Assembly: GCF_001661965.1 (NCBI RefSeq)
Contig: NZ_LYWZ01000025.1
Span: 310,001-374,000, forward strand
From: Croceicoccus mobilis
GTDB lineage: Bacteria > Pseudomonadota > Alphaproteobacteria > Sphingomonadales > Sphingomonadaceae
Direction: 5' to 3'
DNA length: 64,000 nucleotides
The position numbers and the translations under genes are program-made. Position 1 is the first letter of the stretch; each line of letters starts with the position of its first letter. Below are positions 1,397 through 39,317 of this stretch, piece after piece. The notes below the pieces were generated by a model. That model was not told the origin of the DNA. It searched no databases and was given only the letters and a program-made list of their open reading frames with translations.

Positions 1397-1587
1397 CTTA
1401 ACCTTCCTTTGAACCGAAAGTCTTTTTTTGACTTCGGGGGACGGTTTGATTTTCTTCGAACAGGGGCTTTCTGTCCATCACCTTCAAGGTTTCTGGATGC
1501 GGTAAAGATAGTTGCGGCAACTATCCGATCGAAAACGAAGATTACCCGATCGGTTTAATTGAAACCGATCCAACAGCCATGAGGAAA

Positions 1588-1623
1588 TGAGCCAGCCACT
1601 GGAAATGGCAGGCTGCTGGCTCA
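1588..1623 (-). terminator. Hairpin at the purL stop codon, possible weak terminator
   Basis: Nine bases (TGAGCCAGC, 1588-1596) pair perfectly with 1615-1623 across an 18-nt loop. The stem begins in the purL stop codon. In the transcript it is followed by only a short T-rich stretch (ATTTCC), so it may act as a weak terminator or 3'-end stabiliser. Confidence 0.3.
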
Positions 1624-3855
1624 GCCATCCATCCAGTCAGCGAAGAACGCAAGGTGGCTTGCTTTCAGTTCGGAGAGAGGAACCATGCTCTCGGCATTCA
1701 CCGCCCGGAAGACGAGCTTGTCGCCACCGGTTACGCCTAGCGCGATGGCAGCAAGGCCCGCGGCTTCGGCGGCCTCGAGGATCGGTTCGGCTTCGCTTGC
1801 CGTCACGACATAGCGGGCCTGATCTTCGCCGAACCAGAACGCCGCCTGGCTCAGGCGATCCTCCGGCATGGCGACGGTGCAGCCCATGCCGCCCTTCATC
1901 GCCATTTCCGCCAGCGTAACGGCAAGGCCGCCGTCGGAGCAATCGTGCACGGCAGTCACGGCCTTGTCGGCGATAAGCTTGCGCACGGTTTCACCCGCGG
2001 TCCGCTCAAGGTCGAGCATGACAGGGGGCGGAGTGCCTTCCTCGCGGCCATGGATATTGCGCAGCCACAGCGACTGGCCCAGATGGCCGCTTTCGCCGCC
2101 GATCACCACGATCTGCTCGCCCGCCGCCTTGAAGCCGGGGGTCGCCATGATCGCGTAGTCCTGCATCAGGCCGACGCCGCCGATGGCAGGGGTGGGCAGG
2201 ATTGCGCTGCCGCCACCGGTCGCCTTCGACTCGTTGTAAAGCGAGACATTGCCCGACACGATCGGGAAATCGAGCGCCCGGCACGCATCGCCCATGCCTT
2301 CGAGGCAGCCGACGAACTGGGCCATGATCTCGGGCCGCTGCGGGTTTGCGAAATTCAGGCAGTTGGTGACGGCCAGTGGCAGCGCACCCACCGCGCAGAT
2401 ATTGCGCCACGCCTCGGCAATGGCCTGCTTGCCGCCTTCATGCGGGTCGGCATAGCAATAGCGCGGGGTGCAGTCGGTGCTGATCGCCAGCGCCTTTTTC
2501 GTGCCATGCACGCGCACGACGGCCGCATCGCCGCCGGTCTGCAGCGTGTCCGCGCCGACCTGCGAATCGTACTGCTCGGCAATCCACTTGCGCGAGGCGA
2601 GATCGGGGGAGCCGACCAGCGCCTTAAGATCACCCGCGACATCGTTAGTCTCGGGCAATTCCTGCAGCACGGTGGTGCCGACCCAATCGGCATATTCCTC
2701 GCGGCTGATATAGGGGCGGTCATAAAGCGGCGCGTCTGCGGCCAGCGGGCCGAGCGGGATGTCGCAAACGACCTCGCCATCGAATTCCAGCACCATGTGG
2801 CGCGTATCGGTGACTTCGCCGATGACCGCGAAATCCAGCTCCCACTTACGGAAAATCTCTTCCGCCATGGCTTCCTTGCCCGGCTTCAGCACCATGAGCA
2901 TGCGCTCCTGGCTTTCCGAAAGCATCATCTCGTAAGGCGTCATGCCCTCTTCGCGGCAGGGGACCTTGTTCATGTCGAGGCGGATGCCCGCCTTGCCATT
3001 GGTCGCCATCTCGACGGACGAGGATGTGAGGCCCGCCGCGCCCATGTCCTGGATCGCGACGATGGCGTCGGTCGCCATCAGCTCGAGGCACGCCTCGATC
3101 AGCAGCTTTTCCGTGAAGGGGTCGCCAACCTGCACGGTGGGGCGCTTCTCTTCCGAATCCTCGCCGAAATCGGCGCTGGCCATGGTTGCGCCATGGATGC
3201 CGTCTCGCCCGGTCTTCGACCCGACATAGACGATCGGATTGCCAAGGCCCGTTGCGGCGGAATAGAAAATCCGATCGGCGTCCGCTACGCCCACGGTCAT
3301 CGCATTGACGAGGATATTGCCGTCATAGGCGGGGTGGAAGTTGGTCTCACCGCCAACGGTCGGCACGCCGACGCAATTGCCATAGCCACCGATGCCGGCG
3401 ACCACGCCCTGCACCAGATGCTTCATCTTCGGGTGATCGGGGCGACCAAAACGCAGCGCGTTCATGTTCGCCACCGGGCGCGCGCCCATGGTGAACACAT
3501 CGCGCAGGATGCCGCCAACGCCCGTCGCCGCGCCCTGATAGGGCTCGATATACGAAGGGTGGTTATGGCTCTCCATCTTGAAGATGCAGGCCTGACCGTT
3601 GCCGATGTCGATGACGCCCGCATTTTCGCCGGGGCCGCAGATGACCCAGTCCGCCTCGGTCGGAAGCTTCTTCAGATGGAGGCGCGAGCTTTTATAGCTG
3701 CAATGCTCCGACCACATCACGGAGAAGATGCCGAGTTCGACGAGATTGGGCTCCCGCCCCAGCGCATGCAGCACGCGCTCGTATTCTTCGGGGGAGAGGC
3801 CGTGAGCCGCTACGACATCGGGCGTGATCTTGTCGGGCGTGGTGGATTGGGTCAT
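1621..3855 (-). CDS. purL: Phosphoribosylformylglycinamidine synthase subunit II
   Basis: PurL, the amidotransferase-dependent synthetase that makes formylglycinamidine ribotide in step 4 of purine synthesis, working with PurS and PurQ in the cytoplasm. At 744 residues it matches the short PurL type used with separate PurS/PurQ subunits. Recognisable stretches are [14 protein letters not shown] near the N-terminus, [19 protein letters not shown] (ATP/Mg site), [16 protein letters not shown], and a late [10 protein letters not shown]. The start ATG at 3855 is chosen because the family begins just upstream of the [19 protein letters not shown] segment; a longer frame to 4008 would add 51 implausible residues. 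No purS or purQ is adjacent. Confidence 0.96.
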
Positions 3856-5824: not shown

Positions 5825-6559
5825 ATGACCATCCGTTTCACCCTGCTTGCCGCTATCGGCGCTGCCTCGCTTGGCCTTTCGACCGGCGCGATGGCGCAGG
5901 ACGCCGACACGACCGCCAATGCAGAGGCCGATACTGCCGTAGAAGAGGCTGCACCGGCCCCCACGATCACGCCGGAATACTGGACCGTCGACACTGACCT
6001 TACGCATGAGCCGGAAAACATCTGGGTTCTCGACCTGGCGAACGGCGGACGCGTCCAGATCCGCCTGAAGTCCGAATGGGCACCTAACCATGTCGAGCGT
6101 ATCAAGACGCTGACCGAACAGGGCTTTTACGACGGCACGATCTTCCACCGCGTGATCGATGGCTTCATGGCGCAGGGTGGAGATCCGACCGGCACGGGGC
6201 GCGGCGGGTCGGAGCTTCCCGACCTCAAGGCGGAATTCAACCGCGTACCGCATCTGCGCGGGACGGTGGCGATGGCGCGTAACGGCAATTCGGACGATTC
6301 GGCCAACAGCCAGTTCTACATCATCTTTTACCCGACCATGGCAATCGACGGGAAATACACCGTCTTTGGCCGGGTGATCGGCGGCATGAATCATGTCGAT
6401 GCGATCCAGCGCGGTCAGCCGCCGCAAAACCCGACGAAGATCGTCCAGGCATCGCTGGAGAGTGACCACAAGGCACCGCCAGTAGCCGCTTCGGCCGAGC
6501 CGGAGATCACGGCGGACATGCTGAACGCAGCCACGCCCGAAAGCGCGCCGGCACAGTAA
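5825..6559 (+). CDS. Exported cyclophilin-type peptidyl-prolyl isomerase
   Basis: A 244-residue cyclophilin that catalyses cis/trans isomerisation of prolyl bonds, probably in the periplasm. [19 protein letters not shown] and the cleavage region GAMAQD form a clear signal peptide. The cyclophilin core runs from about residue 65 to 205 with [36 protein letters not shown] and the late VFGRVIGGM. The catalytic arginine of FHRV is present. The acidic N-terminal linker and the Pro/Ala-rich tail after residue 210 look disordered. ATG 5825 is preceded by GAGGG; an upstream ATG at 5750 would bury the signal peptide. Confidence 0.92.
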
Positions 6560-6568
6560 TCCGCGCAA

Positions 6569-6600
6569 AGCCCCGGTCGGTAACGGTCGGGGCTGGCCTT
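6569..6600 (+). terminator. Hairpin after the cyclophilin gene
   Basis: AGCCCCG (6569-6575) pairs with CGGGGCT (6588-6594), followed by GGCCTTTC. The T tract is short, so termination would be inefficient. Confidence 0.35.
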
Positions 6601-6630
6601 TCGCCCGCTCTGGTCCTAGTGGCTCGCCCC

Positions 6631-7686
6631 ATGCGAGTGGACGCCTTCGATTTCGACCTTCCGCAAGAGCGGATAGCCCTGCGGCCCGCGCGCCCGCGTG
6701 ACGCGGCGCGCATGCTGCTGGTGCGCGGCAGCAAGATGGAGGATCGCGGCGTTCGCGATCTGCCCAGCCTGCTGAACAAGGGCGATGTGCTGGTCTTCAA
6801 CGACACGCGCGTCATTCCTGCCCAGCTGGAAGGCGTGCGTCCCCCGCGCGATGGAGAGCATGGCGAGGGCGCCAAGATCGGGGCGACCCTCCACAAGCGT
6901 ATAGACCTCAGGCGCTGGCAGGCGTTCATCCGCAACGGCAAGCGCCTGCGCGAGGGTGACATGGTCGAATTCCCCGCTGGCGTGACTGCCATTGCCGAAA
7001 ACCGCCACGACGATGGCAGCTGGTCGCTGTCCTTTGGCGGCGATGAACCTGTCGAAGTGCTGCTGGAACGTGCGGGGCAGATGCCTTTGCCGCCCTATAT
7101 TGCGGGCAAGCGCGGAACGGATGAACAAGACCGCAGCGATTACCAGACCATGTTTGCCGAGCGTGACGGCGCGGTCGCGGCCCCGACCGCATCGCTGCAC
7201 TTCACGCCGGAGCTGATCGCCAGGCTGGACGAAGCGGGGATCGGGCGTGAAACGCTGACGCTGCATGTCGGTGCGGGGACATTCCTGCCAGTCAAGGCGG
7301 ACGATACCGACGACCATGCCATGCACGCCGAATGGGGCCGCATCGAACCTGATGTCGCAGAGCGCCTGAACGCCGTCCGCGCCGCAGGTGGCCGTGTTAT
7401 CGCGGTTGGCACTACCGTCCTGCGCCTGCTGGAAAGCGCCGCGGGTGAAAACGATCTTATTCGACCCTTTGCTGGTGATACCTCGATCTTTATCACGCCC
7501 GGTTACAGGTTTCGCGCGGTCGATGGCCTGATGACCAATTTCCATCTGCCCAAATCGACGCTGTTCATGCTTGTCAGCGCGTTAATGGGGCTCGATACCA
7601 TGCAGGCGGTCTATGCCCATGCGATTGAGCAGGAATATCGTTTCTACTCCTATGGCGATTCCTCGCTGTTGCTGCCCGCTGCTTGA
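6631..7686 (+). CDS. queA: S-adenosylmethionine:tRNA ribosyltransferase-isomerase
   Basis: QueA transfers and isomerises the ribosyl moiety of SAM onto 7-aminomethyl-7-deazaguanine in tRNA, giving epoxyqueuosine. The N-terminus [20 protein letters not shown] is the family opening and fixes the start at ATG 6631 rather than the GTG at 6619. Other family segments are [44 protein letters not shown] and [18 protein letters not shown]. It ends in a TTGA overlap with the next gene. The queuosine partner tgt is about 2.8 kb downstream, separated by an ABC exporter and a DUF481 gene. Confidence 0.95.
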
Positions 7687-33018: not shown

Positions 33019-34908
33019 TTGCCCGTTCGTCCTCACATTGCCGCTTTCCCCATATCGCTTCGCCGCTGCTGGCTGGGCCTTTTGGCCGTGCTTGGCCTTG
33101 CTCTCCTTTCCTCCTGTGCCGGAGAGAGCGAGACGGTTTCCCCCATTCAAGGCACCGGATCGGGAATCGACGGAGAAAGCGTGGATACCGCTGTTGATCC
33201 GGGCAATGATTTCTATCGATATGCGAACGGCAACTGGCTGCGCAACGCCGTGGTGCCCGCCGATGCAAGTAATGTCTCGCGCACCAGCGCGGCTGAGGCC
33301 GAACTTGACCGCCGCCTGACTTCCATCGTCGAGGATATCGCCGGTCGCCCGCAGGACCGGGGGACGCCAGAGGCGCTCGTTCGCGATTATTACCGCTATT
33401 ACATGGACCGGGAGATGATTGATCGCCTCGGCCTGAAACCCGCCAGCAGTTTCATCGAACGCATCGACGGGATCGAGGATGTGGCCGGCCTGTCGCGCGC
33501 GATCGGTACCACGCTGCGCGCCGATGCCGAGCCGCTTGCCGGCAAGCAAAGCGAGAATCTGTTCGCGGTTTCGGTATTGCCGGCGCCGACGGGTAAGAAT
33601 GCCGCGGCGTGGCTGCTGCCGGGCGGATTGGGGCTGCCCGACCGCGAAGCCTATCTGCTTGAAAGCTCCGCCGCCCGCGCGACTCGCGCGGCCTATCGCG
33701 ATTACGTGGCGCGGATCCTGTCACGTGGCGGGCGCACGGGGGCGACCGCTCGCGCCAATGCGGTGCTCGATCTCGAAGTCAAGCTCGCCGAGGCGCAAGG
33801 CGCGGCGCAGGATCTTTCGCAGGCCCGAATGCTTTCTGCCGAAGAGCTTCAGGAAGAGGCGCCGGGCATCGACTGGGCCGGGCTGCTGGCAGCCGCGGGG
33901 CTTGGCGACGAGGCGCAGATCGCAGTGGTCGATGCCGAGGCGATTGCCCGTATCTCCACCTTAGCAAAGGAAGTGCCGCTGGATGCGTGGAAGGACTGGC
34001 TGATATTCCATCGCCTCTCCACCCACGCCAATGTGCTACCCGCTGAATTCGCCCGCGCCCGCTATGTTTTTTACGGACAGCGGATGGGCGTGATGGACGA
34101 CGGCGGTTCGCGGGAGGAACTCGCGACGCACCAGATCAGCTCGCTTTTCGGCGGGACGCTCAGCCGGCTCTATGCCGCTCGCTATTTTTCCGAGGAAGAA
34201 CGCAAGGACGTTTCGATCATCGTCGATCGCATTCGCCGCGCCATGGCCGATGGCCTGCCCGATGGGGCTGATGGCACCGCCGCGCTGGAGGAGTTGACCG
34301 TAGCGACGGGTTTTCCCGATGAATATGAGGAACTCACCGATCTCGGCCCGTTTGCAGCCAATGCCTATGGCATGACGGTCGCCGCTGAAAGGGCCGCCTA
34401 TCGGCAGGAACTTGGCCTGTTGGGCAAGCCTTATGATCCCACACGCTGGGTGACCGGCACGCAGGACATGCAGGTGCGTTACCTGCCGCTGCAAAACGTG
34501 CTGGAGGTGCCCGCGGCCCTTTTGCAGCCGCCGTTCTATGACCCGGAAGCCGATGCTTCAGCGAATTATGGCGGGATCGGCGGGATCGTGGGCAAGAGCC
34601 TCGCAAATGCAGCAGGCGCCGCCCATCCGACCATTGCCGGTCTGGCAGCGGCCTATGAGGGGTATCGCGCATCATTGGGCGGAAAGGAGCCGCGCGTGAT
34701 CGAAGGCTATACCGGCGACCAGCGGTTCTTCATCGCCTTTGCCCAATTGCAGGCGGTCAAGACGGCAAGGGAGGCATCGGCGATTACGCAGGGCGCGAAA
34801 GACGATGCCAATGCCGTGCGCAATCTGGATGCGTGGTACCGGGCTTTCGACGTGCAGCCCAGCGACGAACTTTACCAGCCCGCAGCCGAGCGGCTGACGG
34901 GCTGGTAG
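33019..34908 (+). CDS. M13-family metallopeptidase homologue lacking the zinc motifs (pseudopeptidase lipoprotein)
   Basis: A 629-residue neprilysin/PepO-type protein. The lipobox LLSSC (about residues 29-33) marks an exported lipoprotein. The N-terminal M13 domain is recognisable from DPGNDFYRYANGNWL onward. Near the C-terminus, LQPPFYDPEADASANYGGIG matches the family just before the active site. The following residues are IVGKSLANAAGAAHPTIAGL instead of HExxH, and the ENIADLGG motif is also gone, with about 55 residues missing between. GYTGDQRFF and the C-terminal end then resume. It should not bind catalytic zinc. The start is TTG 33019; a stop lies 10 bp upstream and no good ribosome site is seen. 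Confidence 0.85.
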   Translation: MPVRPHIAAFPISLRRCWLGLLAVLGLALLSSCAGESETVSPIQGTGSGIDGESVDTAVDPGNDFYRYANGNWLRNAVVPADASNVSRTSAAEAELDRRLTSIVEDIAGRPQDRGTPEALVRDYYRYYMDREMIDRLGLKPASSFIERIDGIEDVAGLSRAIGTTLRADAEPLAGKQSENLFAVSVLPAPTGKNAAAWLLPGGLGLPDREAYLLESSAARATRAAYRDYVARILSRGGRTGATARANAVLDLEVKLAEAQGAAQDLSQARMLSAEELQEEAPGIDWAGLLAAAGLGDEAQIAVVDAEAIARISTLAKEVPLDAWKDWLIFHRLSTHANVLPAEFARARYVFYGQRMGVMDDGGSREELATHQISSLFGGTLSRLYAARYFSEEERKDVSIIVDRIRRAMADGLPDGADGTAALEELTVATGFPDEYEELTDLGPFAANAYGMTVAAERAAYRQELGLLGKPYDPTRWVTGTQDMQVRYLPLQNVLEVPAALLQPPFYDPEADASANYGGIGGIVGKSLANAAGAAHPTIAGLAAAYEGYRASLGGKEPRVIEGYTGDQRFFIAFAQLQAVKTAREASAITQGAKDDANAVRNLDAWYRAFDVQPSDELYQPAAERLTGW

Positions 34909-34928
34909 GCTCCTGCGTTTCGCGGGCC

Positions 34929-35357
34929 TTATTCGGCCGCGGCGAACTTGTCCTGAAGGTCGAGGAGGGCGAGGGCGGCCTTGGCTGCCTCGCCGCCCTT
35001 GTCCTTCTGTGAAGGATCAGCGCGGACGATCGCCTGTTCTTCGTTCTCGACCGTAAGAATGCCATTGCCGATGGCGATGCCGTCCATGGTCAGCGCCATG
35101 ATGCCGCGCGCGCTTTCACCGGCGACGATCTCGAAGTGATAGGTCTCGCCGCGAATGACGACGCCGATGGCGACATAGCCGTCATAGCGTTCGGCCTCGG
35201 TAGCCAGCGCGATGGCGGCGGGAATTTCCAGCGCGCCGGGAACGGTGATGACATCGACGTCATGACCCTCGGCCTCCAGCACTCCCTTCGCCCCGGCGAT
35301 AAGCATGTCGTTGAGATGCGAGTAGAAGCGCGCTTCCACGATCAGAAAACGGGACAA
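34929..35357 (-). CDS. ribH: 6,7-dimethyl-8-ribityllumazine synthase
   Basis: RibH condenses 5-amino-6-ribitylaminouracil with dihydroxybutanone phosphate, the penultimate riboflavin step. The protein has [35 protein letters not shown] and the [19 protein letters not shown] loop. TTG 35357 is preferred as start because GGAG lies 8 nt upstream and the family begins here; a TTG at 35387 overlapping the ribBA stop would add ten residues. It follows ribBA directly, forming a riboflavin operon. Confidence 0.94.
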
Positions 35358-35383
35358 GTTCTTTACTCCAGAATGCGGTGCGT

Positions 35384-36703
35384 TCAAGCGGGCTCTACGG
35401 CCTCGGCCCCGGCGGGAGCGATCAGGCGCTCCTCGACGATCGACAGGCCGTAACCCTCCAGCGCGATCAGTGAATGGTGCGAGGTGGTGAGCAGGATCAT
35501 CTCGTGCACGCCCAACTCGGCAAGGATCTGTGCCCCTACGCCATAGTCACGCAGTTCGTCCATCTCTTCCGGGTTCTTGCTTTCACGCGCTTCAAAATAG
35601 CGCGCCAATGCGCCGCCCTTGAGTCGGCTGATTGCAACCAGGACGCCTGAACCTTCGCCCTCAATCATTTCCATCGATCGACGCAGCAGGCCTGTGCGGG
35701 GCCCCTTTTCACCCAAAATGTCGGCAAACATGTCGAGCGTGTGCATGCGAACCAGCGTCGGCGTTTCGGAATCCACGCGGCCATGCACCAGCGCCATCAT
35801 CTCATCGCCGGTCGGTTCGTTGCGGAATGCCATCGCGGTCCAGATCTTGCCAGTGGCGCTGGTGAAGCGGCTTTCCGAGACGACCTTGACGTGACGGTCA
35901 TGGCGCCGGCGATAGGCGATCAGATCACGGATCGTGCCAACCTTGAGGTCGTGCAGGCGGGCAAAACGAACGAGATCGTCCATGCGCGCCATGGTGCCGT
36001 CATCGTTCATGATCTCACAAATCACGCCCGAGGGGTTAAGGCCTGCAAGCCGGGCGATGTCGACAGCGGCTTCGGTATGACCTGCGCGCGTCAGCACGCC
36101 ACCGTCGCGTGCGATCAGCGGAAAGACATGTCCGGGGGTAACAATGTCGTCAGCCCCCTTCGTTCCGTCAATCGCCACGCTGATGGTGCGCGCGCGATCG
36201 GCGGCACTGATGCCGGTGGACACGCCTTCGCGAGCCTCGATCGAAGTGGTGAATGCGGTTTCGTGGCGCGTCCGGTTGTTCCGGCTCATCAGTTCGAGCC
36301 CGAGCTGTTCGGTCCGCGTACGGGTGAGGGTGAGGCAGATCAGGCCGCGTCCGTGCGTTGCCATGAAATTCACCGCGGACGGCGTCGCCATTTGCGCGGG
36401 AATCACGAGGTCGCCTTCGTTTTCGCGGTCCTCGTCATCGACCAGGATGAACATGCGCCCGTTGCGGGCCTCATCGATGATCTCTTCGGGCGAGGCGATC
36501 ACATCCCGGTCGGAATTCACGCGCAGGAAGGAATCGAGCTTGGCCAATGTCTCGGACGTCGGGTTCCAATGCGGCTCATCGCAGTCGCGCAAGCTGTTGG
36601 CGTGCAAGCCTGCAGCGCGTGCTATGGCGGATTTGCTCATGCGCCCCTTCGCGATGATTTCGCGGATGCGGGTACGGGTCGATTCGAGTTGTTCGGTTTG
36701 CAT
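35384..36703 (-). CDS. ribBA: RibBA-type dihydroxybutanone phosphate synthase with N-terminal HTH and degenerate GTP cyclohydrolase II domain
   Basis: A 439-residue three-part protein. Residues ~7-60 ([20 protein letters not shown], then [20 protein letters not shown]) form a four-helix HTH-like domain. Residues ~68-270 are a RibB domain with [28 protein letters not shown] and [12 protein letters not shown] intact, so it should convert ribulose 5-phosphate to dihydroxybutanone phosphate. The last ~160 residues align with GTP cyclohydrolase II, but the CxxGD...RCDCG zinc ligands are replaced ([19 protein letters not shown]), so it should be inactive there, as is known for some alphaproteobacterial RibBA. 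ATG 36703 has no clear ribosome site. CAATGT dyads lie just upstream. Confidence 0.92.
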
Positions 36704-36710
36704 GCGGGGG

Positions 36711-36747
36711 CAATGTCACATTGCAATGTGAATTGCAAAAGCAATGT
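36711..36747 (-). promoter_or_regulatory. CAATGT dyad cluster upstream of ribBA (putative operator)
   Basis: CAATGT occurs at 36711 and ACATTG at 36718, forming the 13-bp palindrome CAATGTCACATTG. CAATGT at 36724 makes a second palindrome, ACATTGCAATGT (36718-36729), and a further CAATGT lies at 36742. The cluster starts 8 bp upstream of the ribBA start codon, where a repressor would act. Binding by the HTH domain of RibBA itself is an inference. Confidence 0.55.
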
Positions 36748-36830
36748 GATCAGGTTCCCGGCTATAGCAAGACATCGGCGTCAGGGACGGCGGTGAAGTG
36801 TGAGACTTGTGCGGCTTACGTCGAACCAAG

Positions 36831-36858
36831 GAAAAACCCCGCCGGTTAGGGCGGGGTT
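36831..36858 (-). terminator. Intrinsic terminator after the 24-codon gene
   Basis: AACCCCGCC (36835-36843) pairs with GGCGGGGTT (36850-36858) around a 6-nt loop. On the minus strand the stem runs into TTTTTC. It lies 24 bp past the mini-gene stop and before the ribBA operators. Confidence 0.88.
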
Positions 36859-36882
36859 CCATTTGGTCAGTCCAACCTCGAA

Positions 36883-36957
36883 TCAAGTGTCGAAGGTCAG
36901 GCCCCAGATCCAATCGATCAGACCACGGTTTGCGCCATTCGGCTTACGGTTCTGCAT
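36883..36957 (-). CDS. 24-codon mini-gene encoding a basic/amphipathic peptide
   Basis: The peptide starts MQNRKPNGANRGLIDWIWG and ends LTFDT. Its N-terminal half is basic and polar, its C-terminal half has two Trp and is hydrophobic. A strong GGAGG lies 6 nt before the ATG and a good terminator follows, so this looks like a deliberate gene, too small for standard calling. It lies 47 bp downstream of the EAL gene and upstream of ribBA. It could be a leader peptide or a free small protein. No family is recognised. Confidence 0.55.
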   Translation of the reverse strand: MQNRKPNGANRGLIDWIWGLTFDT

Positions 36958-36960
36958 TTT

Positions 36961-36981
36961 AGGCCTCCATTACTGAGGCCT
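36961..36981 (-). promoter_or_regulatory. Hairpin that sequesters the mini-gene ribosome binding site
   Basis: AGGCCTC (36961-36967) pairs perfectly with GAGGCCT (36975-36981) around a 7-nt loop. The 3' arm in the minus-strand RNA contains most of the GGAGG used by the 24-codon gene. Opening of the stem would be needed for translation. Confidence 0.45.
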
Positions 36982-37004
36982 CATCATTAACCTTAAACTC
37001 ATAG

Positions 37005-39317
37005 TTAATAAAGCGTTAATTTCTTGCTCATGGAATCTTCGTCGCTATGAACCATCGCAAGCAGCTGAGCGATGCGCATGGGGCGTCCGTAATAGAACCC
37101 TTGCCCGATGGTGCAGCCAAGCTTCGTAAGCGTGTTTCGCTCCTCTTCGACTTCGATGCCTTCCGCCACGAGGCGCATGTCCGCATTGCGCGCGGTTTCG
37201 CACAATGCGCCGATGACGATGCGTGCGCGTTCATTATGCTGCGCAAGCGTGACGAAGCTGCGATCGATCTTGATCTCGTCGCAAGGCAGGCCGACCAGAA
37301 GCGAAAGATTTGCCTCACCAGTGCCGAAATCGTCGAGCGATATGTGGAAACCCTTCGACTGCAGCAGTTTGAGGTTGCTCGCGGCGATGGGAAAGTCGTC
37401 GATCTTGGCGGTTTCGGTGATTTCGATGGTGATTGCTTCGGGGCGGCCGCCGCCCGCCGCGATATTGTCGCAGACGAGCGGAATGAAATCATGTTCTGCG
37501 AGAAGCGTGGCCGAGATATTGACCGAAACCCGCGCGCCCGCACTGGCGAGCACATTAGCCGAGCGCGCCGCCAGACGCAGCGTGTGCGCGGTCAGCGGCT
37601 TGAGGCGGCCTGCCTTTTCGATATGGGGAATGAATTCGCTGGGGCTGATCTCGCCACGCTGCGGGTGCTTCCAGCGCACGAGTGCCTCAGCACCCACGAC
37701 GTGACCATTCTCCAGCAGGCACTGGGGCTGGAACAGCAGATAGATGTGCTGGTGCGCGATGGCATGGTCGAGCGATGAATGCAGCGAAAGTTGCCAATCC
37801 GCATCCGCTCCGCCCTGTTCGCTGACAAGCGCAAGCCTGCTCGCGCGGCGCTGCGCGATTTCTGCGGCAACGACAGTCGCGCTTATCGCCTGCCGCGGGA
37901 CGGTCACTTCTGTGTCCAATATGCCAAACCCGCATGCAAAATCGAGCGTGCGATCCCCGACCCGCAAGGGCGCACTGGCGAGGGCAAGCAGGCCGGTGAT
38001 GTGGCTCTTGGCATGCTCCATCTCATCGAACCAAGCGAAATGGCCGGTGGCATCGGTATAGATCCGCAGTTCGCCACCAACGGCAAGTCGCTGGGCGATC
38101 TGGTTTATGAAGCTGCGATGGAGGGTGGGGTCGAGGCTGGCAAGGATCTCCTCGTAATTCTCCACGCGGGCCACCACCAGGCGGCCGTTGCTTTTCGCGA
38201 AGTCATCCTCCAGCGACTTGAAGTTGGGCAAACCCGAGGTTGCATCGCTGCCCGCGGCGCGATCGCGCCAGATCGTGCGGGCCCTGACCGCGCCATAGAT
38301 TGCCAGCAGCGTGTAGAGCATGCCGGCAGGCAGGACGATGTCGAAATGCATCGCGATAAAAGGCGCTGCGATTGATGCTGTAAAAAGTGCTGCATATCCA
38401 ATGCGTCGCTTTCGGCGTGGCAGGAGCGTGGCAGCCGCCAACAACAGGCCGAGGAACAGGAAGGGGATCGTCCAGTGAAAGGCTTTCAATTTGCCGGCGT
38501 AGAGCGTTTCGGCGGCCAGAACCCCGACGAAATTGGCCGATGAATCGGCCAGATTGGGCGTGCGGTATGTCTGTGTAATGCCAAGTGGCGGAGCGGTGAC
38601 CAATACTCTCTTGCCGCGGATCGCTTCTGCGGAAACCTTGCCGGAAAGCAGTTCCTGAAGCGTGTAGATGGGCACGGTCTGAAAACGATAACGGTGGTCT
38701 ATCGGGTAAACTTCGCCCTGCAGGCTTTGCGCATTTATATCAGCAAGAGCGAGACCTAGCCGCGGTAGGGTATTTGGTCCGGAATCGAATGTGGTGACAG
38801 CGTCCAGCGTATATCCGGTTATAGAGGTGCGATTGAGGTCGACCGCCTCCTCGTCCACGGGGAGAATGGCTGTGCGAACGATCTGCCGCCCTGTAGAATT
38901 GTCGCTGGTGTTCGAAACCGGCCAGACGACCACTGTTCGCGATCGCGACCTTGCCAGCACGTCACGAAGCTGGCCGATGCCGGGATCGTCACTCGGAAAC
39001 CGGCCCTCGAACACGATCCGGCGCGGCTGCATCGGATCAAGCGCCGAAATCGCCAGCGCCTCGCGCTCCGCTCCTGAGCGGTTGTCGGTGCTGTCGGCAT
39101 CGGTGGTGATCATCACGATTTCACCCGACGCATCGCGCGGCATCATGCGGGCCGATATGATGCGCGGTGGTTCATCCAGGATTTTCGGCAGGTCGAGCAG
39201 ATACAGCACGGCCACTGTCGCCAACAGCGACATGGCAAGCTGGATCAACCGTTGCTTCTGCTTCTGTCCGAGCCAGATAAAGGGGGTCTGCACGCGCATT
39301 GGGCAAGCAGGTAGCAT
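37005..39317 (-). CDS. CHASE2-like/degenerate GGDEF/EAL cyclic-di-GMP phosphodiesterase
   Basis: A 770-residue membrane signalling protein. A first helix (~22-44) precedes an extracytoplasmic CHASE2-like sensor, then three hydrophobic segments at about 290-355. The GGDEF-position reads ATGHFAWFDE, so the cyclase motif is lost. The EAL domain is intact: EALVRWKHP, VSVNISA, IEITETAKIDDFP, LDDFGTGEANLSL, IKIDRSFV, RLVAEGIEVEEE and QGFYYGRP. It should hydrolyse c-di-GMP in response to an external cue. The start is uncertain: ATG 39317 is given, and ATG 39299 is the alternative. A divergent neighbour is absent. Confidence 0.85.
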   Translation of the reverse strand: MLPACPMRVQTPFIWLGQKQKQRLIQLAMSLLATVAVLYLLDLPKILDEPPRIISARMMPRDASGEIVMITTDADSTDNRSGAEREALAISALDPMQPRRIVFEGRFPSDDPGIGQLRDVLARSRSRTVVVWPVSNTSDNSTGRQIVRTAILPVDEEAVDLNRTSITGYTLDAVTTFDSGPNTLPRLGLALADINAQSLQGEVYPIDHRYRFQTVPIYTLQELLSGKVSAEAIRGKRVLVTAPPLGITQTYRTPNLADSSANFVGVLAAETLYAGKLKAFHWTIPFLFLGLLLAAATLLPRRKRRIGYAALFTASIAAPFIAMHFDIVLPAGMLYTLLAIYGAVRARTIWRDRAAGSDATSGLPNFKSLEDDFAKSNGRLVVARVENYEEILASLDPTLHRSFINQIAQRLAVGGELRIYTDATGHFAWFDEMEHAKSHITGLLALASAPLRVGDRTLDFACGFGILDTEVTVPRQAISATVVAAEIAQRRASRLALVSEQGGADADWQLSLHSSLDHAIAHQHIYLLFQPQCLLENGHVVGAEALVRWKHPQRGEISPSEFIPHIEKAGRLKPLTAHTLRLAARSANVLASAGARVSVNISATLLAEHDFIPLVCDNIAAGGGRPEAITIEITETAKIDDFPIAASNLKLLQSKGFHISLDDFGTGEANLSLLVGLPCDEIKIDRSFVTLAQHNERARIVIGALCETARNADMRLVAEGIEVEEERNTLTKLGCTIGQGFYYGRPMRIAQLLAMVHSDEDSMSKKLTLY

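Follow-up and report, generated by a model that had tools for sequence, protein, structure and literature searches.

A phage Cro-like domain and a predicted operator at the riboflavin gene ribBX of Sphingomonadaceae: a probable autogenous repressor

Introduction

RbkR consists of a helix-turn-helix (HTH) domain fused to riboflavin kinase. This archaeal protein is described as a regulator of riboflavin genes or of the riboflavin operon (PMC10746257). In Bacteria, the FMN riboswitch (RF00050) is presented as a key control of riboflavin genes (PMC12542839). Enzymes with DNA-binding activity that act on transcription are known as trigger enzymes (PMC8249747), and BirA has been listed as a trigger enzyme of a cofactor pathway (PMC5343134). 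In Shewanella and Aeromonas, RibBX is described as a RibB domain joined to a RibA-like domain that has no GTP cyclohydrolase II activity, and this cyclohydrolase-inactive RibX domain affects RibB through a mechanism that the same source gives as unknown (PMC10012899). Among the open-access papers listed by our searches, none announces in its title or the beginning of its abstract a regulator that fuses an HTH domain to RibB.

We describe here such a fusion in Croceicoccus mobilis (genome G000; family Sphingomonadaceae, order Sphingomonadales, class Alphaproteobacteria), located in a stretch of 64,000 nucleotides that we call the window, together with a predicted operator in front of its gene and with relatives of both in phages and prophages. 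The features of the locus are collected in Table 1.

Table 1. Features of the ribBX locus in the window (window coordinates)
Feature	Position	Strand	Basis or remark
ribBX (HTH-RibB-RibX), 439 aa	35384..36703	-	
N-terminal Cro/C1-type HTH domain, residues 1-69	36497..36703	-	Pfam, AlphaFold model, fold search, alignment
RibB domain, residues 73-264	35912..36487	-	PF00926, E 1.6e-83
RibX, GTP cyclohydrolase II-like domain without zinc-cysteine motif, residues 275-425	35429..35881	-	PF00925
ribH (lumazine synthase)	34929..35387	-	overlaps ribBX end; co-transcription presumed
Proximal operator (predicted) TCACATTGCAATGTGA	36716..36731	.	16-bp dyad; comparison of relatives
Putative -35 element TTGCAA	36733..36738	-	position from alignment on dyad
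Putative -10 element CATTGC	36710..36715	-	alignment; family consensus there starts TA
Distal half-site, TCACATT on coding strand	36743..36749	.	relatives more often in opposite orientation
Terminator-like hairpin between upstream gene and ribBX promoter	36836..36852	-	1 found vs 0.5 expected (shuffles)

Results

An HTH domain at the N-terminus of RibBX

A first-pass annotation of the window had read the gene as ribBA, with an HTH-like module at the start of the protein. The enzyme name did not survive: no cysteine lies beyond residue 270, so that the zinc-cysteine motif expected in the RibA domain of a bifunctional RibBA is missing, and a second PF00925 gene of the genome, on contig C16, does have this motif. 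Because its C-terminal half is free of cysteine and a separate, cysteine-motif RibA is encoded elsewhere in the genome, while the RibB domain is kept, we class the protein as a RibBX. In alignment A1, 6 of the 27 proteins without the HTH have the motif and the 13 with it all lack it; PDB entry 6mnz, titled RibBX (Acinetobacter), ranks third among the fold matches of the model. A partial second RibB-like sequence, without HTH, was seen on a 74-kb contig of the same genome (C19:8272-8877, locus L152).

The N-terminal module, on the other hand, is borne out by a Pfam HTH_26 match (E 0.0027, under the curated cut-off) and by a confident AlphaFold model. Its top fold matches are mostly Cro/C1-type proteins, the best at E 0.47 and none at or below 0.001, and its profile had no significant match among PDB sequences. 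Residues A28, A30, G32, L33, H34, N36, L38 and R39 are invariant over the 18 rows of alignment A2, as are W46-T49, T52, L53 and L56. By sequence and model, one polypeptide therefore carries a catalytic domain and a domain of DNA-binding type, which is one mark of a trigger enzyme.

In a draw of 147 genomes of the order the fusion was found in 57 of the 64 that belong to the family; elsewhere in the order, the matches listed start no earlier than residue 55. In a sample of 289 genomes of the class (4 of the family by listing), the strong HTH-RibBX matches were those in G000, G012 and G019, each a member of the family. A different HTH-enzyme fusion was seen in genome G342 (locus L212, frame 1459-3114, 552 aa), where a Cro/C1-type HTH is joined to a RuBisCO large-chain domain.

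A 16-bp dyad upstream of ribBX

The first-pass annotation had singled out CAATGT dyads in front of the gene. These words are present as described (36711, 36718 on the minus strand, 36724 and 36742); taken by itself, CAATGT shows no enrichment over the window, with 28 matches for 22.4 expected, a count reached in 15 of 100 shuffles, and we rejected it as the operator because the central bases vary among relatives. The meaningful unit is a 16-bp dyad, TCACATTGCAATGTGA, which ends 12 nt ahead of the ribBX ATG at 36703 and of which relatives keep TCACAYTNNNRTGTGA, the central bases being free in upstream alignments. Exact TCACATTGCAATGTGA is a single copy in the 4.2-Mb genome, where the next nearest sites have 3 mismatches.

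Alignment of 64 upstream regions on the dyad shows that TTG is favoured at -6 to -4 and TA at 17-18, and that ATG most often starts 12-13 nt past the dyad; from this placement, the dyad would fill the 17-bp spacer between -35- and -10-like elements and transcription would start near the ATG, so that the ribBX transcript is probably leaderless. TTG occupies the exact -35 place in only 45 of 152 distinct loci, and TA its own in 87 of them. A sigma-70 consensus scan of the window stretch gave no promoter and recovered neither putative element.

The distance to the gene is rather regular. A dyad with at most 3 mismatches lies 10-15 nt before an in-frame start in 141 of 168 distinct HTH loci, versus 0 of 107 non-HTH loci and 0 of 168 shuffled sequences; the 27 HTH loci that have no good dyad at this distance nearly all have one within 100 bp. 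Further upstream, by 14-30 bp, a half-site in the same direction occurs in 81 of 152 loci, versus 6 of 1489 control windows. With a lax threshold of 5 mismatches, a second dyad is found in 104 of 141 loci, and in 72 it lies 31-32 bp upstream, or about three helical turns. The distal half-site of the window points the other way, an arrangement shared with relatively few loci (10/152).

A 24-aa ORF, MQNRKPNGANRGLIDWIWGLTFDT, sits between an EAL-domain gene (37005-39317) and ribBX in the window (36883-36957, minus strand), with a GGAGG-like ribosome site and then a terminator-like hairpin; a residue-pattern search of the loci fetched by then found it in C. mobilis only. Locus L085 (Novosphingobium sp. 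B1), on a 28-kb contig, has both a divergent HTH-RibBX and a divergent dyad, GCACATCGCAATGTGA.

The dyad accompanies the HTH domain

The check proposed by the first-pass annotation was whether the dyads are conserved along with the HTH fusion. It was run in two samples with the 16-bp dyad, and the idea held. The first sample combined 80 named loci with 70 from the order draw, of which 70 have the HTH (57 + 13) and 80 lack it (67 + 13), and was scored by mismatches to TCACAYTNNNRTGTGA within 100 bp upstream. A dyad was found at up to 1 mismatch in 64 of the 70 HTH loci, two of which (L006 and L037) are identical, and at up to 2 in 69, the exception being L012 with 3. None of 79 non-HTH loci, which come mostly from other families, with about 13 being family genomes, second copies or named Sphingomonas, scored 2 or fewer, one scored 3, and one further locus was too short. 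The second sample was fetched once the motif was fixed and scored in the same way. Its HTH loci come from 100 genomes (G558 enters twice, and L260 duplicates L047 from the first sample): 90 of 101 have a dyad at up to 1 mismatch and 98 at up to 2, one HTH locus (L303) scoring 6 because the start codon was chosen inside the dyad. Its 29 non-HTH loci, the family loci among 30 returned by a search that matched 34 of 40 genomes, have none at up to 3 mismatches. In both samples, shuffled upstream sequences seldom get to 2 mismatches.

Genome-wide searches agree with these counts. The pattern TCACAYNNNNRTGTGA occurs in 121 of 199 family genomes, namely in 119 of 159 with the HTH and in 2 of 40 without (G471 and G515, one match each), and, in a draw of the order, 47 of the 50 family sites of the stricter pattern TCACAYTNNNRTGTGA, from 49 genomes, lie within 150 bp upstream of the ribBX match, with 3 elsewhere. 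At the level of sequence, a cognate operator at the protein's own gene, another mark of a trigger enzyme, would thus be present.

RibBX genes without the HTH often come directly after ribE, and the loss of a separate promoter could hence explain part of the joint loss. Where ribE ends within 260 bp upstream, as judged by a residue pattern, the dyad is nevertheless kept in 36 of 38 HTH loci; operon structure by itself therefore does not account for its presence. A quickly built tree of the enzyme core, with 87 rows, requires 8 changes for the HTH state and 9 for the operator (5 forced by well-supported branches). Only 5 phylogenetically independent pairs could be drawn on such branches. Of 200 random pairings, 187 have all pairs going the same way and the others 4 of the 5, for a median p of 0.0625 in a sign test.

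Absence of a riboswitch and reach of the control

No Rfam family was found at E up to 1 in window positions 34500-38500. RF00050 was detected, with stricter filters, in 16 of the 147 order genomes (the draw being taken as identical to that described above), none of the 16 in the family; family members without the HTH also gave no FMN riboswitch in the genomes sampled. An FMN riboswitch was accordingly rejected as the control of ribBX, and the first-pass remark that none is visible holds for the surroundings of ribBX in the window and for the family genomes sampled.

The dyad was not found in the fetched G000 loci of ribA (L200) and ribDE (L202), so that in C. mobilis the control seems to cover only ribBX-ribH; the ribA locus contains two isolated AATGTGA half-sites. 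Some relatives have dyads elsewhere (G025, G100, G138, G471, G515 and others). One of them, a perfect TCACATTTCAATGTGA flanked by an ATGTGA half-site, lies away from ribBX and, by eye, downstream of ribH (G025, L184, 1501-1516).

Stand-alone relatives in phages and prophages

Relatives of the HTH that stand alone were found in genomes G446, G449 and G464, in G420 from another family of the class, in Pseudanabaena phage Pan3, whose record annotates other frames and leaves this one unannotated, and in 8 IMG/VR contigs. They amount to 12 distinct Cro-like genes, L358 being a repeat of L355. Next to 11 of the 12, in divergent orientation, lies a repressor gene of Cro/C1 or S24 type, only L359 having a frame of another kind there. 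The neighbour frame matches Peptidase_S24 or the PHROG 4 transcriptional repressor in G446, G464, L355, L360, L364 and L365 and weakly in L357 and L363, and the Cro/C1-type HTH_26 in L361, L362, L363, L357 and L207. In 10 of the 12, a 16-bp dyad whose arms mismatch at 1 position or none ends 10-15 nt before a start, against 3.1% of shuffles, in a test that allowed the real genes a few alternative in-frame starts and the shuffles none. The G446 stretch encodes an integrase, a primase and a terminase; that of G464 a recombinase, a Holliday junction resolvase and a primase/helicase. The window HTH is thus kin to genes in phage Cro position, whereas its own gene is fused and chromosomal, not a stand-alone gene divergent from CI as are L353, L355, L356 and L365.

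Genome G446 is instructive in having both kinds of gene. Beside a CI/S24 repressor, its stand-alone prophage HTH gene is preceded by an operator of the RibBX type, TCACATTCAGATGTGT, at 13 nt from the start and by an upstream half-site, while both of its RibBX genes lack the HTH and show at best 5 and 4 mismatches to the operator within 300 bp. The operator, in other words, follows the HTH. The sole exact pattern match in this genome falls in the same prophage stretch (L366, 6873): TCACATTAGGATGTGA, several kilobases away from the Cro-like gene and directly ahead of a frame on the minus strand (6438-6803), is perhaps a second phage operator.

Operator letters differ with the helix. TCACAT goes with H-A/P-N-T/S-L-R (RibBX and G446), GCATAT with H-R/H-N-T-L (G449, G464 and Pan3) and CGCAT-like letters with K/R/N/S-D-T (L357, L361, L362, L363 and L207); L359, L360 and L364 fit all three types poorly. 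Over the Cro-position genes L353, L355, L356, L357, L360-L365 and L207, recognition-helix residues and operator letters tend to covary. The HTH tree is poorly resolved and does not settle the direction of transfer.

Discussion

These sequence comparisons lend strong support to autoregulation by way of the N-terminal HTH. In the reading that we favour, and consider highly probable, RibBX would be an autogenous repressor whose HTH comes from a Cro-type head of a phage, domesticated along with the Cro operator and promoter. The self-repression put forward by the first-pass annotation is thereby retained in outline, since HTH and dyad co-occur in two samples, and altered in its parts: the operator is TCACAYTNNNRTGTGA and not CAATGT, the enzyme is RibBX, and the reach seems to be only ribBX-ribH. 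A Cro-type autorepressor and its operator-promoter would most probably have been taken up by ribBX within the family; we infer this phage-to-host direction from the wider spread in phages and from the CI/Cro setting. RibB enzymes are dimers, and for this reason a RibBX dimer may place two HTH heads on TCACATTnnnATGTGA. When bound, TCACATTnnnATGTGA would shut out RNA polymerase and limit ribBX-ribH transcription, because it fills the -35/-10 spacer, and the second site, about three helical turns upstream, may aid binding. The level of RibBX would in this way set its own expression, possibly tuned by ligands of the RibB or RibX domain.

A more ambitious scenario, to which we give some credence but which we think rather doubtful, is that an ancestor of the Sphingomonadaceae fused a prophage cro with its operator-promoter to ribBX in replacement of a riboswitch, and that a metabolite in a pocket gates the Cro head. 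Ribulose 5-phosphate, GTP or a flavin, held in the RibB or RibX pocket, might be this metabolite, and RibX would then act as the sensor.

Could the dyad be read by something other than RibBX? A separate transcription factor might bind it, the HTH of RibBX serving for dimerisation or being a leftover module. The TGTGA/TCACA letters may resemble sites of other regulators, and HTH and promoter could vanish together when ribBX joins the ribDE operon. We nonetheless consider a separate factor unlikely: the operator tracks the HTH even beside ribE (36/38), and in G446 it is found at the stand-alone prophage HTH gene and is absent at both HTH-less RibBX genes; where Cro relatives differ in their helix residues, the dyad in this position differs in its letters too, and H34, N36 and R39 of the helix never vary in alignment A2. 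Least probable, and hardly credible to us, is a conserved promoter or mRNA element that has no protein reader. Its rather fixed spacing to the start codon would suit such an element, but the dyad is found at up to 2 mismatches in 0 of 108 HTH-less loci of the two samples, the letters are conserved beyond mere pairing and, if transcription starts near the ATG, the dyad would lie outside the mRNA.

The sign of the control is a distinct matter. RibBX might bind the dyad and activate, for instance via the upstream half-site, whose distance of about three helical turns from the proximal site is compatible with this role. Cro proteins, however, are repressors, and a protein bound in the -35/-10 spacer, which the main dyad fills, normally blocks polymerase; activation is in our judgement slightly less plausible than a separate factor. 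We therefore retain repression by RibBX itself as the preferred reading.

This reading would give a large bacterial family, whose sampled genomes yielded no FMN riboswitch, a means of controlling vitamin B2 synthesis through a protein. It also presents a case, open to testing, in which a biosynthetic enzyme adopted a phage repressor jointly with its operator. For the unexplained RibX domain it hints at a function, which would be that of a sensor if pocket gating is true. Among the relatives, changes in helix residues go along with changes in operator letters, a natural set well suited to the study of a recognition code.

Like the FMN riboswitch, HTH-RibBX would control riboflavin genes; no such riboswitch was found near the window ribBX or in the family genomes sampled. 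RbkR and HTH-RibBX are both tied to a riboflavin operon; RbkR, however, is archaeal and uses a different enzyme, and we know of no phage link for it. The RibBX proteins described from Shewanella, Aeromonas and Acinetobacter have the RibB and RibA-like domains of the window protein, and the HTH-less rows of A1 (n=27) begin at or near the RibB domain, unlike the HTH-bearing RibBX of the window. Like phage Cro, the window HTH is short and of Cro/C1 type, the phage relatives lying divergent from a CI-like gene with a dyad just upstream of their start; it differs in being fused to a chromosomal enzyme, with no CI-like gene adjoining. Like the E. coli trigger enzymes BirA, NadR, PutA, PepA and PyrH, as far as these are described in the sources cited, RibBX would unite an enzyme with DNA binding that acts on transcription, this binding being predicted in its case. 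It departs from them in its enzyme, its pathway and its HTH: the sole target seen for RibBX is its own transcription unit, and its head resembles phage Cro, complete with an operator.
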